Part shown: positions 14,061 through 17,801 of the stretch, piece after piece | Position numbering within the stretch: position 1 is the first letter of the stretch | How the letters are laid out: each line of letters opens with the position of its first letter | From: Streptomyces sp. V1I1 | GTDB taxonomy: Bacteria; Actinomycetota; Actinomycetes; Streptomycetales; Streptomycetaceae | DNA length: 64,000 nt | Reading direction: 5' to 3' | Assembly: GCF_030817355.1 (NCBI RefSeq) | Contig: NZ_JAUSZH010000001.1 | Location: 6,892,501-6,956,500, forward strand | The notes under the pieces: model-generated | Seen by the model: only the letters and a program-made list of their open reading frames with translations | What the model was told of the DNA's origin: nothing | Databases searched by the model: none | Made by a program: the position numbers and the translations under genes

Positions 14061-14708
14061 ATGAAGATCCACGCCGACGCGCTGCTGTTCGACAACGACG
14101 GAACCCTCATCTCCTCGCTGGAGTCCGTCCACCGCTGCTGGACCAGGTGGGCGCAGGAGTACGGAATCGCGGCGGAGGACTTCGCCCGTGTCGAGCTGCA
14201 CGGCCGCCCCGCCGCCGAGATAGCCGCCGATCTGCTGCCCGCGGACGTGGTGCCCGAGGCGGTGGCCCGTATCGAACAGCTCGAGGTCGAGGACGTGCCC
14301 GGGGGAGTCGTCCTGCTGCCGGGCACCGCCGAACTGCTGGCGCAGCTGCCCGCCGACCGCTGGGCCGTGGTCACCTCCGCGACCCGGCGGCTGGCCGAGG
14401 CCCGGCTCGAAGAGGTCGGCATCCGGCCCAAGAATCTGATCGCCGCCGACGACATCACGCGCGGCAAGCCCGACCCTGAGCCCTTCCTGCTCGGGGCGCG
14501 GACGCTCGGCGTGGACCCGGCGCGCTGTGTGGTCTTCGAGGACGCCCCGGCGGGGCTGGCCGCAGGACGCGCCGCGGGCATGCGAACCGTGGCCTTGGCC
14601 ACAACTCACGAGCCCTCCGAGCTGCTCGCCGATGTGGTCGTACATGACCTCTCGGCCGTGTCCGTGCAGGCCACGGGCGCGGGGGTGGAGATCGTCACGG
14701 TCGGCTGA
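14061..14708 (+). CDS. HAD-superfamily hydrolase (sugar-phosphatase-like)
   Basis: Cytosolic Mg-dependent phosphatase of 215 aa. HAD motif I FDNDGTLI (residues about 10-17), motif II VTSATR, motif III Lys in RGKPDPEPF and motif IV VVFEDAPAGLAAGRAAGM match the beta-phosphoglucomutase/sugar-phosphatase subgroup with a helical cap. Substrate likely a small sugar phosphate, not certain. TAGGGT (14047-14052) ends eight bases before ATG 14061 and no ribosome site is present, so the mRNA is probably leaderless. It is divergent from two membrane-protein genes and stands upstream of the metNIQ leader. Confidence 0.9.
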   Translation: MKIHADALLFDNDGTLISSLESVHRCWTRWAQEYGIAAEDFARVELHGRPAAEIAADLLPADVVPEAVARIEQLEVEDVPGGVVLLPGTAELLAQLPADRWAVVTSATRRLAEARLEEVGIRPKNLIAADDITRGKPDPEPFLLGARTLGVDPARCVVFEDAPAGLAAGRAAGMRTVALATTHEPSELLADVVVHDLSAVSVQATGAGVEIVTVG

Positions 14709-14791
14709 GCCTGTCCACATGTCGTGTCAGAGACGTCCGCTATTCGGACAGTCCTGCTTGCTCCCTACACCTGTCTGCTTTACTTGCCGAC

Positions 14792-14878
14792 ATGACCAGG
14801 ACGAGCAGCCGCACCCTTGCGACCGAGGCGATCACGACGCCCGGTGCTCGTTGTATGTGTCGAATGTGCGCCTTCTGA
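14792..14878 (+). CDS. Cys/Met-rich leader peptide of the methionine transporter operon (candidate)
   Basis: A 28-codon frame, ATG 14792 to TGA 14878, begins MTRTSSRTLATEAITTPG and ends ARCMCRMCAF, with three Cys and two internal Met codons clustered just before the stop. Such an end is what ribosome-stalling attenuator peptides for sulfur amino acids look like. TTTACT (14779-14784) ends seven bases ahead of the ATG, so it may be a leaderless first codon of the metNIQ mRNA. A strong hairpin (14900-14920) starts 21 bases after the stop. The function is inference: low charged tRNA-Cys or tRNA-Met would stall ribosomes here and change downstream folding. It lies 243 bases before metN. Confidence 0.6.
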   Translation: MTRTSSRTLATEAITTPGARCMCRMCAF

Positions 14879-15121
14879 GGGCCCCTGCCTGTGGGGGCAC
14901 CCCCGGCCGAAGGTTGGGGGACTCGCGCCCCGAAGCGAGACCCGACAGCCGAGCCGAATCCGATGCACCGCCAAGACCGCATTGGAACAAGGCTGCCCCG
15001 CGCACGCGCTGCCCACCGGCCACCAGCCGAATCAGCCGTGCCGCGCCTGACTGTCCGAACCTGAAATGCCCCGTGCCCGGCGGACACCGCGCCGTGCACT
15101 CGACAGTGACGGAAACCCCCT
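14879..15121 (+). promoter_or_regulatory. metNIQ leader RNA region with hairpins
   Basis: Between the leader-peptide stop and metN there is no further gene. It holds GCCCC/GGGGC pairing (14881-14897), the 9-3-9 hairpin CCCCCGGCC-GAA-GGTTGGGGG (14900-14920), and a smaller CTCGC/GCGAG hairpin right after it. The overlapping G-rich and C-rich arms allow alternative folds. No SAM-I-type or other known riboswitch core was seen. Confidence 0.45.
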
Positions 15122-16204
15122 GTGATCACCACTACGGGCCTTACCAAGGTCTATGAGCCGCGAGGCCGCCAGGTCACCGCTCTGGACGGCGTCGACCTGC
15201 ACGTCCGTGAGGGCGAGGTCTTCGGAGTCATCGGCCAGAGCGGCGCCGGAAAGTCCTCGCTCATCCGCTGCGTCAATCTGCTGGAGCGCCCCACCTCCGG
15301 CACCGTGACCGTGGCCGGCCAGGACCTCACCGCGCTGGCCGGCCGTGGCCCGGGCGCCACCAAGGAACTGCGCGAGGCGCGCAGCCGCATCGGCATGGTC
15401 TTCCAGCACTTCAACCTGCTGTCCTCGCGCACCGTCAAGGACAACGTCGAACTGCCCCTGGAGATCCTCGGGATCCCGGGCGCCGAGCGCTCGCGCAGGG
15501 CCCTGGAACTCCTCGACCTGGTGGGCCTCGCCGACAAGGCCAAGGCGTACCCCGGGCAGCTCTCCGGCGGCCAGAAGCAGCGCGTCGGCATCGCCCGGGC
15601 GCTCGCCGGCGACCCCAAGGTGCTGCTCTCCGACGAGGCGACCAGTGCCCTGGACCCCGAGACCACCCGCTCGATCCTCCAGCTGCTCCGCGACCTCAAC
15701 CAGCAGCTCGGACTGACCGTTCTGCTGATCACGCACGAGATGGACGTCGTCAAGACGATCTGCGACTCGGCAGCCCTGATGAAGAAAGGGAAGATCATCG
15801 AATCCGGCACGGTGAGCGAGCTGCTCGCGACCCCCGGCTCCGAACTGGCACGGGAGCTGTTCCCGGTGGACGGCGAGGCCTCAGGACCCGAGAGCACGGT
15901 CATCGACGTCACCTTCCACGGCGAGGCCGCCACCCAGCCGGTGATCTCCCAGCTCTCGCGTACGTACAACATCGACATCTCGATCCTGGGCGCCGCGATG
16001 GACACCGTCGCCGGCAAGCAGTTCGGCCGGATGCGCATTGAACTCCCGGGCCGGTACGAGGACAACGTCGTCCCGGTCGGCTTCCTGCGAGAGCAGGGCC
16101 TCCAGGTCGACGTCGTGGACCCCGATGAGCCTGCCGCCCCCGCCGAACCGGTCGCCCTCCCCGCGCAGGGCGGCCCCGCACTGGTCAAGGGAGGTGCCAA
16201 GTGA
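15122..16204 (+). CDS. metN: Methionine ABC importer ATP-binding protein
   Basis: ATPase that powers methionine uptake. The 360-aa protein has Walker A GQSGAGKSS (residues 38-46), Q-loop FQHFNLL, signature LSGGQKQR (from residue 147), Walker B VLLSDEATSALD and the switch His in ITHEMDV. The C-terminal NIL domain (about 265-345, VIDVTFHGEAATQPVISQL onward) is the allosteric methionine-binding domain typical of MetN. Start GTG 15122; the ribosome site is weak. Its stop overlaps metI by four bases. A 410-base leader with a Cys/Met peptide precedes it. Confidence 0.96.
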   Translation: MITTTGLTKVYEPRGRQVTALDGVDLHVREGEVFGVIGQSGAGKSSLIRCVNLLERPTSGTVTVAGQDLTALAGRGPGATKELREARSRIGMVFQHFNLLSSRTVKDNVELPLEILGIPGAERSRRALELLDLVGLADKAKAYPGQLSGGQKQRVGIARALAGDPKVLLSDEATSALDPETTRSILQLLRDLNQQLGLTVLLITHEMDVVKTICDSAALMKKGKIIESGTVSELLATPGSELARELFPVDGEASGPESTVIDVTFHGEAATQPVISQLSRTYNIDISILGAAMDTVAGKQFGRMRIELPGRYEDNVVPVGFLREQGLQVDVVDPDEPAAPAEPVALPAQGGPALVKGGAK

Positions 16205-16872
16205 CCTGGTCGGAGATGCAGCCACTGCTGAGCCAGGGCACCGTCGACACCCTCTACATGGTGTTGTGGTCCACCCTCGTCACCGTCGCCGGCGGACTCC
16301 CGCTCGGTGTGCTGCTCGTCCTCACCGACAAGGGCGGACTGCTGCAGAACACCCCGGTGAACAAGGTCGTCGGCGTGATCGTGAACATCGGACGCTCGCT
16401 GCCGTTCATCATCCTGCTGATCGCGCTGATCCCCTTCACCACGCTGGTCGTCGGCACCTTCATCGGTCCCACCGCGATGATCGTGCCGCTGGCCGTGGGC
16501 GCCATTCCCTTCTTCGCGCGACTCGTCGAGACGGCGATCCGCGAGGTCGACCACGGACTGGTAGAGGCCGTCCAGTCGATGGGCGGCTCCATCCCGACGA
16601 TCGTCCGCAAGGTGCTGCTGCCGCAGGCCCTGCCCTCGCTCGTCTCCGCCGTCACCACCACCGTGATCGTGCTCGTCGGCTACTCGGCGATGGCCGGCGC
16701 GGTCGGCGGCGAGGGGCTCGGATCCAAGGCCGTCACCTACGGATTCCAGCGCTTCGAGACCCAGTTCATGCTCATCACGGTCGTCATCCTGATCGCCCTC
16801 GTCACCGCCGTGCAGCTCATCGGTGACGGCGCCGTACGACTCCTGGCGCGCCGGGGCCGTACCGCTTCCTGA
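16201..16872 (+). CDS. metI: Methionine ABC importer permease
   Basis: Membrane subunit of the D/L-methionine importer, 223 aa, about five helices. The coupling-helix EAA motif reads EAVQSMGGS followed by LLPQALPSLVSA, as expected for MetI. Begins with GTG 16201 inside the metN stop region (four-base overlap), so translation is coupled. The N-terminal helix (VDTLYMVLWSTLVTVAGGLP) and the GYSAMAGAVGGEGLGSKAV loop are family hallmarks. The binding-protein gene metQ follows after 68 bases. Confidence 0.95.
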   Translation: MTWSEMQPLLSQGTVDTLYMVLWSTLVTVAGGLPLGVLLVLTDKGGLLQNTPVNKVVGVIVNIGRSLPFIILLIALIPFTTLVVGTFIGPTAMIVPLAVGAIPFFARLVETAIREVDHGLVEAVQSMGGSIPTIVRKVLLPQALPSLVSAVTTTVIVLVGYSAMAGAVGGEGLGSKAVTYGFQRFETQFMLITVVILIALVTAVQLIGDGAVRLLARRGRTAS

Positions 16873-16940: not shown

Positions 16941-17801
16941 GTGCGTAAGAACATCAAGCTCCCCGCTGTCGTCGCCGCAGCCGCCGCTCTCTCCCTCGGC
17001 CTCACCGCCTGCGGCACCGCGTCCGACCCGGCTGCCAAGTCCGACTCCGGCGCCAAGGCCGACGAGTCCAAGGCGCTGGTCGTCGCCGCGTCCCCGACGC
17101 CGCACGCCGACATCCTCAACTACATCAAGGACAACCTGGCGAAGAAGGCCGGACTGAACCTCGAGGTCAAGGAGTTCACGGACTACGTCCTGCCGAACAC
17201 CGCCACCGAGAGCGGCCAGGTCGACGCCAACTTCTTCCAGCACAAGCCGTACCTCGACGACTTCAACAAGAAGAACAAGACCCACATCGTCCCGGTCGTC
17301 AACGTCCACCTGGAGCCCCTGGGCCTCTACTCCAAGAAGTCCAAGGACATCAAGGAGATCAAGGCCGGCCAGACCATCGCCGTCCCGAACGACACCACCA
17401 ACGAGGGCCGCGCGCTCAAGCTGCTCGCCGACAACGGCCTGATCACCCTCAAGGCCGGCGCCGGTACCGACGCCAAGCTCTCCGACATCAAGGACAGCAA
17501 GGGCCTGAAGTTCAAGGAGTTGGAGGCCGCCACGCTGCCCCGCGCCCTGAACGACGTCGACGCCGCAGTCATCAACGGCAACTACGCCATCGAGGCCGAC
17601 CTCAAGCCCGCCCAGGACTCCCTGGCGCTGGAGAAGGCCGACGGCAACCCGTACGCCAACTTCCTCGCCGTCAAGGAGGGCAACGAGAAGGACGCCCGCG
17701 TGGAGAAGCTCGCGAAGCTCCTCAACTCCCCCGAGGTGAAGAAGTTCATCGACGACAAGTACGCCGGCTCCATCGTCGCGGCCTTCGGCGCCGTCAAGTA
17801 G
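16941..17801 (+). CDS. metQ: Methionine-binding lipoprotein
   Basis: Substrate-binding subunit of the methionine importer, anchored outside the membrane by lipid. The 286-aa precursor has a lipobox LTAC with Cys24, then NLPA/MetQ-family sequence: VAASPTPHADIL, FTDYVLPNTATESGQVDANFFQHKPYL, IAVPNDTTNEGRAL and DAAVINGNYA. GTG 16941 was taken as start; AGAAAGAGG lies upstream. It ends with a canonical terminator 20 bases downstream, closing the metNIQ operon. Lys-rich composition differs from neighbours, as usual for secreted binding proteins. Confidence 0.96.
   Translation: MRKNIKLPAVVAAAAALSLGLTACGTASDPAAKSDSGAKADESKALVVAASPTPHADILNYIKDNLAKKAGLNLEVKEFTDYVLPNTATESGQVDANFFQHKPYLDDFNKKNKTHIVPVVNVHLEPLGLYSKKSKDIKEIKAGQTIAVPNDTTNEGRALKLLADNGLITLKAGAGTDAKLSDIKDSKGLKFKELEAATLPRALNDVDAAVINGNYAIEADLKPAQDSLALEKADGNPYANFLAVKEGNEKDARVEKLAKLLNSPEVKKFIDDKYAGSIVAAFGAVK

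Follow-up and report, generated by a model that had tools for sequence, protein, structure and literature searches.

A leaderless, structured upstream frame with a conserved Cys/Met end as a putative ribosome-mediated attenuator of metNIQ in Streptomyces

The window analyzed here is a 64,000-nucleotide stretch from Streptomyces sp. V1I1 (NZ_JAUSZH010000001.1, 6,892,501-6,956,500), and all positions are counted from its start. The host genome (G000) has 8.3 Mb, and its nearest named relatives by MetN are Streptomyces. On the forward strand, the window carries an operon for methionine uptake, composed of metN (15122..16204), which encodes the ATP-binding protein of a methionine ABC transporter and starts with GTG at 15122, metI (16201..16872), for the permease, and metQ (16941..17801), for the substrate-binding lipoprotein. 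The best matches were TIGR02314 for metN (380.6 bits, equivalog cut-off 499.7), NF008049 for metI (202.7 bits, cut-off 212), and both NF008285 (177.1 of 374 bits) and TIGR00363 (176.4 of 228.85 bits) for metQ; since all these scores are under the curated cut-offs, the gene names rest on best matches and operon order. Upstream of metN and on the same strand lies the subject of this analysis, a 28-codon upstream open reading frame (uORF; 14792..14878) that encodes the metL-type leader peptide MTRTSSRTLATEAITTPGARCMCRMCAF, running from an ATG at 14792 to a TGA at 14876-14878, with the stop 243 bases 5' of metN. The initial annotation of this DNA had recorded the frame, its Cys/Met-rich end, its distance from metN, the TTTACT box seven bases before the ATG, and the hairpins that follow, and all these observations were confirmed. 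The frame itself is already known: it corresponds to metL (SLIV_29928), described in 2021 as the leader peptide of metNIQ in S. lividans TK24 and found to be leaderless by RNA-seq (PMC8079986).

To place the uORF among its relatives, we used a leader set made of 17 named Streptomyces/Kitasatospora loci (of 80 named loci) and the genomes of a genus set (n = 150), two sources that may share some genomes. MetN was found in 143 of the 150 genomes, at 144 places, and 141 of these, including the window, were examined; the places in G008, G050, and G082 were left out because the match lacked the N-terminus or lay at a contig start. A homologous frame was found upstream of metN at 157 of 158 loci, window included, with 122 distinct sequences among the 157; the single miss, L217, is cut by a contig end and was left out of the 157-leader counts. 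The addition of 39 leaders from other genera gave a set of 196; for these, 40 of 62 non-genus genomes with a model match were fetched, and L306, a match with no metN, was removed before counting. The multi-genome searches used strict filters, and a miss in them is not proof of absence. As the homologous frames were chosen by similarity to the window peptide, the reading frame was tested separately through nucleotide landmarks. From the ATG to the conserved CGA-ATG, 195 of 196 leaders have a number of bases divisible by three, in 10 different lengths between 66 and 96 bases, and the sole exception, L219, has a variant landmark with no Arg-Met. Within the 157 leaders, the uORF spans 27 to 37 codons, the lowest value corresponding to L154, where the start was taken nine bases too far downstream with the frame unaltered; 123 leaders have exactly 28 codons (91 distinct). 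L218 and L220 have 37-codon uORFs, with the additional codons placed between the first Cys-Met and the final R-M-C and the frame kept; the metN-proximal block described below is altered in them as well. Judged by this frame test, the uORF is conserved and translated. Open frames are common in such a GC-rich leader, and 17 of at least 20 residues overlap positions 14600-15200; a chance frame is nevertheless ruled out by the presence in 157 of 158 leaders, the frame test, and the conserved Cys/Met end, and we give this explanation practically no credence.

The -10-like box TTTACT (14779..14784, forward strand) ends seven bases before the ATG, which puts the transcript start at or next to this codon. 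Of 196 leaders, 194 have the pattern TT(T/A/C)A(C/A)T with its end 6 or 7 bases upstream of the ATG, and no strongly conserved -35 box was found at the 157 loci. This conserved box, together with the published RNA-seq of S. lividans, indicates that the uORF is leaderless.

The Cys/Met end, CGT TGT ATG TGT CGA ATG TGC (R C M C R M C), occupies 14849..14869 on the forward strand. Over the last nine codons, Cys was found in 196 of 196 uORFs and Met in 195, with means of 2.59 Cys and 1.80 Met. Over the same bases, frame 1 gave 1.85 Cys and frame 2 gave 0.14, and neither contained Met (0.00); because frame 1 is also rich in Cys but has no Met, it is Met, more than Cys, that marks the frame. In these last nine codons, TGT was used 359 times and TGC 149 times. 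For comparison, a set of 39 long open frames from the window, selected for their length and codon-position GC and not annotated genes, contained 11 TGT and 93 TGC, and 34 of its 999 Arg codons were CGA. CGA-ATG was kept in 192 of 196 leaders, and among the 195 leaders with Arg-ATG, the next codon was Cys in 149 and Arg in 44. A contiguous run of Cys codons is not the pattern: the window has R-C-M-C-R-M-C and most leaders alternate, with two or three adjacent Cys codons in some leaders of other genera, such as L304. Collectively, the comparisons indicate that the Cys/Met end, i.e., CGA-AUG and then mostly Cys just before the stop, is the deepest-conserved part of the uORF. The initial annotation had named conservation of the small frame and of this end in related leaders as a check of its idea, and both are conserved, the frame at 157 of 158 loci.

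An arrest peptide, in which the nascent chain ending R-C-M-C-R-M-C would stall the ribosome on a small molecule (Met or S-adenosylmethionine, SAM) and not by a shortage of tRNA, would account for the conservation of C, R, and M as residues, with TGT and TGC interchanging at codons 21 and 26. We consider it improbable, since the residue after the last Met is Cys in 149 of the 196 leaders and Arg in 44, uORFs of 27 to 37 codons occur, the N-terminal residues vary between genera, and the preference for CGA over other Arg codons (192 of 196) is unexplained by a constraint on residues only.

The codons before this end behaved differently from what had been proposed. The initial annotation had listed synonymous drift outside the Cys/Met end as support for its idea, and this was not seen: in the 91 distinct 28-codon frames, variation at synonymous sites (pS, 0.124) was not higher than at nonsynonymous sites (pN, 0.155), and at codons 10-13 the values were 0.039 and 0.025. 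Codons 21-28 showed the usual order, with pS (0.208) above pN (0.157). Coding constraint alone would give pS > pN, and therefore the RNA itself appears to be selected. In agreement, codons 4-20 are predicted to fold as a three-way junction formed by the helices P1, P2, and P3, with the variable codons 6, 8, 9, 14, and 15 in the junction or the loops; the codons before the Cys/Met end would thus be largely fixed even at wobble positions because they encode this junction. The analysis was performed on an alignment of 62 leaders (A2), picked by eye for diversity from 146 distinct starts, 41 from the genus and 21 from other genera. On the forward strand, the 5' strand of P1, ACGAGC (14801..14806), pairs with its 3' strand, GCTCGT (14846..14851, codons 19-20), with 90.1% of the P1 cells paired. 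At one P1 position, 38 of the 62 sequences have a G-C pair and 18 an A-U pair, a change that alters two peptide residues (AGC to AAC and GCT to GTT). P2, CGCA-CCCT-TGCG (14810..14821), had 85.9% of cells paired and is present in the minimum free energy fold of the window, and 25 of 62 sequences lack its innermost pair. P3, ACCGaGGCG/CGCCCGGT (14822..14845), had 98.8% of cells paired, holds the variable codons 14-15 in its loop, and showed changes on both sides in three of its eight pairs.

Across the 62 leaders, 36 junction cells were changed on both sides, compared with 11.4 in shuffled alignments, and none of 500 shuffles reached the observed values on four of five measures; the fifth was reached by 337. 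When the junction was taken together with the hairpin H2, located downstream of the uORF, in an alignment of 46 leaders (A1; 46 of the 48 non-redundant leaders, with L014 and L015 omitted as too divergent), 95.0% of cells were paired and 7 of 23 pairs were changed on both sides. Again, none of 500 shuffles reached the observed values on four measures, and 321 did so on the fifth (further pair types), while slid controls had 27-40% of cells paired. From these comparisons, the uORF codons appear to be doubly constrained, both as the translated reader of Cys/Met and as part of a conserved RNA fold, and this is new here.

H2 (CTCGC-GCCCCGAA-GCGAG; 14922..14939, forward strand) carries the loop motif CCCCGAAGYG in 149 of 157 leaders. 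Its stem shows the compensatory change of CTCGC/GCGAG to CCCGC/GCGGG in 6 of 196 leaders, and one pair is U-A in 38 and C-G in 3 of 46. Right after the uORF stop lies a GGGC (14879..14882, forward strand), a candidate pseudoknot partner of the H2 loop on the basis of co-occurrence: the strict H2 pattern and GGGY were both present in 167 leaders and both lacking in 14, making 181 of 196 concordant and 15 discordant. This joint presence or absence is as a GGGC:loop pseudoknot would require, with the count inflated by relatedness; the strict pattern misses H2-like hairpins in L016, L091, L141, L148, L174, L194, and L219, which were counted as discordant. The hairpin that the initial annotation had named as the switch (14900-14920, here delimited as 14893..14921, forward strand) lies between GGGC and H2 and turned out to be a dispersed repeat that no leader other than the window's contains. 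By pattern, it was present in 1 of 157 leaders, the window alone, the best alignment score in the 195 other leaders was 13 of 29, and similar copies occur at nine other places in G000. It thus seems to be an insertion outside the conserved leader, which the leader seems to tolerate, and the conserved hairpin is H2. A dispersed GC-rich hairpin of the form GGGGGCACCYCC..GGGGGA was found at 7 places in G000 at up to one mismatch (control 0), and a separate search gave six other partial matches, three of them shared with the 7. In L102, a different insertion lies between the uORF stop and H2, at the same site as the window's repeat hairpin.

The reach of the two conserved parts was compared with a model built from the three-way junction and H2 (R1). 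It gave one strong match in the window's genome, with the next at E 0.28, and matches in 99 of 150 family genomes, of which the one in L306, lacking metN, is counted as false; in other families of the same order, none of the 14 listed genomes matched, nor did one further unlisted genome. A MetN search of 28 R1-negative genomes (20 of 51 from the family and 8 of 14 from other families) gave no match at E up to 1e-80 in 15 of them. The 13 MetN loci obtained all contained CGA-ATG-TGY, including L322 and L323 of another family, and 12, these two among them, had a small frame ending R-M-C plus two residues. The thirteenth, L314, retains the end R-M-C-R-M-C-A and stop, with neither the junction nor a nearby start, which may reflect a deletion or an assembly error. 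Some R1-negative loci, such as L315, have Kitasatospora-like leaders that retain a P3-like hairpin, and in fifteen Kitasatospora-like and other divergent leaders (alignment A3, drawn from the starts remaining outside A2) this hairpin was the only part of the junction seen. The N-terminal residues of the uORF differ between genera. Hence, as far as these alignments and searches reach, the Cys/Met end extends further across taxa than the three-way junction. At seven metN loci of other actinobacteria, no Cys/Met-rich frame was found under the filter used, and some of these matches begin inside the protein; among 14 class-level loci (L342-L355), five passed a looser filter (L342-L346) and nine showed no such frame. 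L342 and L344, from a further family of the class, have their own long Met/Cys-rich frames before metN, e.g., MTPQGRVMCRGMRRCGTSRMCAMGGMPSMR in L342, and L346 also has a Met/Cys-rich small frame upstream of metN.

These data bear on the possibility that the leader is a riboswitch or protein-binding RNA, whose junction would bind a ligand (Met, SAM, Cys, or a protein) with the open frame incidental or secondary. The largely fixed wobble positions before the end, with pS < pN, and a covarying junction accompanied by a hairpin with an almost invariant loop speak for this explanation. We nonetheless judge it unlikely: the frame is kept through length changes in 195 of 196 leaders, the Cys/Met end survives in several genera and in another family where the junction model finds nothing, and 14700-15150 matched no Rfam covariance model at E up to 1 (at gathering scores, the whole window yielded seven tRNAs only). 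A riboswitch with an incidental frame as the sole explanation is ruled out by the frame test and by an end that outlives the junction. We regard it as a rather doubtful extension that the leader is a two-input sulfur sensor, in which the junction of the first 20 codons would itself be a regulatory RNA and the last codons would report on charged tRNA-Cys and tRNA-Met. If true, the same bases would be both a coding sequence and a folded switch, and the junction would bind a metabolite or protein or would time ribosome entry at the 5' AUG.

We consider it probable, with some reservation, that the metNIQ leader is a ribosome-mediated attenuator whose leaderless, translated uORF is carried by an mRNA that is itself a conserved structured element. 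The leaderless start, the translated frame, the Cys/Met end, the junction, and H2 are computed or published, and stalling, the direction of the effect, and the output are inferred from them. Transcription would begin at the uORF AUG, and the ribosome would unwind the three-way junction (codons 4-20) and then reach several Cys codons, among which the rare TGT predominates, together with one or two Met codons, the last Met being preceded by the rare CGA just before the stop. With plentiful charged tRNA-Cys, and probably also tRNA-Met, the ribosome would terminate and leave, and the leader fold would keep metNIQ low. With Cys or Met short, the ribosome would stall at the end, covering it and the first bases past the stop, and would prevent pairing of P1, of the tail, and of the GGGC that follows it, so that metNIQ would be expressed. 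Of the leader-peptide attenuation that the initial annotation had proposed for metNIQ, the frame, the leaderless start, and the Cys/Met end stand, and the hairpin named as the switch does not. The sensor side is well supported, and the output is not.

For the output, translation of metN is favoured because codons 18-21 are complementary to its Shine-Dalgarno (SD)-like region and the surroundings of the latter are strongly conserved. The metN-proximal block (15073..15113, forward strand), defined from the leader consensus, comprises the hairpin GTGCCCGGCG..CGCCGTGCAC and then TCGACAGTGACGGA with the SD-like GGA; over 151 distinct leaders, the consensus was CGTGC-CCGG..GCACTCGACAGTGACGGAA. The 3' strand of P1 is also partly complementary to the metN SD region, and in 78 of 91 non-redundant leaders codons 18-21 paired with it at a mean of 7.49 of 10 positions, where random letters would give about 4.1. 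As an output, termination by Rho in the C-rich spacer has almost the same likelihood. As a complete explanation, the same Cys/Met sensor would control Rho-dependent transcription attenuation: once the ribosome is released, the C-rich, G-poor spacer would load Rho and transcription would stop before metN, and a ribosome stalled at the Cys/Met codons would cover the start of the C-rich stretch. We hold this as a tentative but serious alternative. No terminator-like site was found in 14600-15200, no typical terminator is described after metL (PMC8079986), the spacer has more C than G in 157 of 157 leaders (means of 0.448 and 0.286), a count that has no control from other Streptomyces leaders, and Rho was proposed for mycobacterial cys leaders in PMC1262725, which itself calls that prediction rather weak. 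The C/G ratio of the window's own spacer is just at the 91st percentile of the window's 240-base stretches, with the mean of the relatives at the 98th, and the strong conservation at the metN ribosome-binding region points to translation.

Several results weigh against the attenuator as drawn here. The anchored complementarity to the SD region is not accompanied by covariation, with 3369 of 5000 permutations as good, and it is low in L290-L292, L304, and L305. The duplex of the uORF end with the metN-proximal block, calculated with L281 omitted for giving no usable metN distance, barely beats shuffles (mean z of -0.38, with z < -1 in 20 of 91 leaders), and own pairs were not clearly better than crossed pairs, since 111 of 2000 permutations reached the mean, and 222 of 2000 for a control region. 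A modelled ribosome on the first tail Cys codon shifts SD accessibility little (mean of +0.022 in 90 leaders), with an increase of more than 0.05 in 24 and a decrease in 13; the comparison gave p 0.004 against a ribosome at mid-spacer and p 0.14 against a ribosome at the stop. The tail pairs with the 5' arm of H2 in 98.4% of cells, no more than shuffles give. The shuffles used for the junction and H2 do not correct for relatedness. Taken alone, the window's uORF RNA gives a fold only slightly better than that of its shuffles (z of -0.70), and eight leaders ranged from -2.18 to +1.07; for the whole leader, z was -2.41, which is little informative as the stretch contains the inserted hairpin. 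Moreover, PMC4991794 places a predicted DNA site for SenR 31 bases ahead of the start codon of S. coelicolor metN, and therefore the conserved metN-proximal block could be protein-bound DNA. Finally, the S. coelicolor ilvB leader is given in PMC1262725 as a plausible leader peptide that can be irrelevant. In the HbpS-SenS-SenR study (PMC4991794), metNIQ and cysM of S. coelicolor are in the same table of up-regulated genes, a co-listing that fits a shared sulfur signal and is not a test of this leader.

Upstream of the leader promoter, the palindrome CGTCCGCTATTCGGACA (14734..14750, with no strand assigned) is a probable operator. The pattern TGTCCGNNATNCGGACA, at two mismatches or fewer, was found at 144 of 157 loci, usually at a distance of 57-59 bases upstream of the ATG, at 0 of 157 in a control stretch before metN, and at 14 of 39 loci of other genera. 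With one mismatch, TGTCCGNNATNCGGACA also occurs at three other genome places, L229, L230, and L231, the second near a bioY-like gene and the third in an amino acid ABC transporter region, names that were read from the translations and not searched.

With these results, metL, so far annotated in a single species, becomes an element that is conserved in the Streptomyces family and whose parts can be tested, the likely signal being Cys and Met rather than Thr. The misleading hairpin is removed from the model, and the control of methionine uptake at an operon with no recognizable SAM riboswitch becomes directly testable. What appears to be new in our comparisons is the conserved Cys/Met end, the structured codons, H2, and the inserted nature of the repeat hairpin. 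Full-text literature searches returned no other account of this leader and no structural description of it, with most subscription papers outside their reach.

Compared with known systems, the closest is metL of S. lividans, which has the same gene position, the homologous 29-residue peptide MSTTSDRTPATEATTTPGARCMCRRMCAF, a leaderless start, and downstream hairpins with no typical terminator. The metL description in PMC8079986 covers one species and stresses the several methionines and threonines of the peptide, whereas the conserved Thr codons sit here in the structured part; that description contains no mention of conservation, Cys codons, the three-way junction, or H2. SAM riboswitches and the Streptomyces-metH and metK RNAs (PMC8079986) likewise represent upstream RNA control of Met/SAM genes in Streptomyces, and, unlike them, the metNIQ leader gave no Rfam match at the threshold stated above. 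The structured uORF motifs ilvB (uORFC-75-1) and fthC (PMC11109978) are also RNA motifs that contain an open frame before a metabolic gene, but they are described with an intrinsic-terminator-like stem, and none was found in the metNIQ leader. The candidate actinobacterial cys leader peptides of PMC1262725 share Cys codons near the stop and no obvious terminator; they belong to cys or cbs genes of Mycobacterium, Propionibacterium, and Bifidobacterium, and no conserved terminator hairpins are given there. Lastly, the mycobacterial polycysteine uORFs (Canestrari et al. 2020, as described in PMC9031893 and PMC13236596) are described as translation attenuation and lie upstream of cysteine biosynthesis genes; like the one analyzed here, they are leaderless small frames with Cys codons in an actinobacterium. 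In the metNIQ leader, in contrast, Cys mostly alternates with Met and Arg, the target is methionine import, and the frame lies inside a conserved RNA fold.

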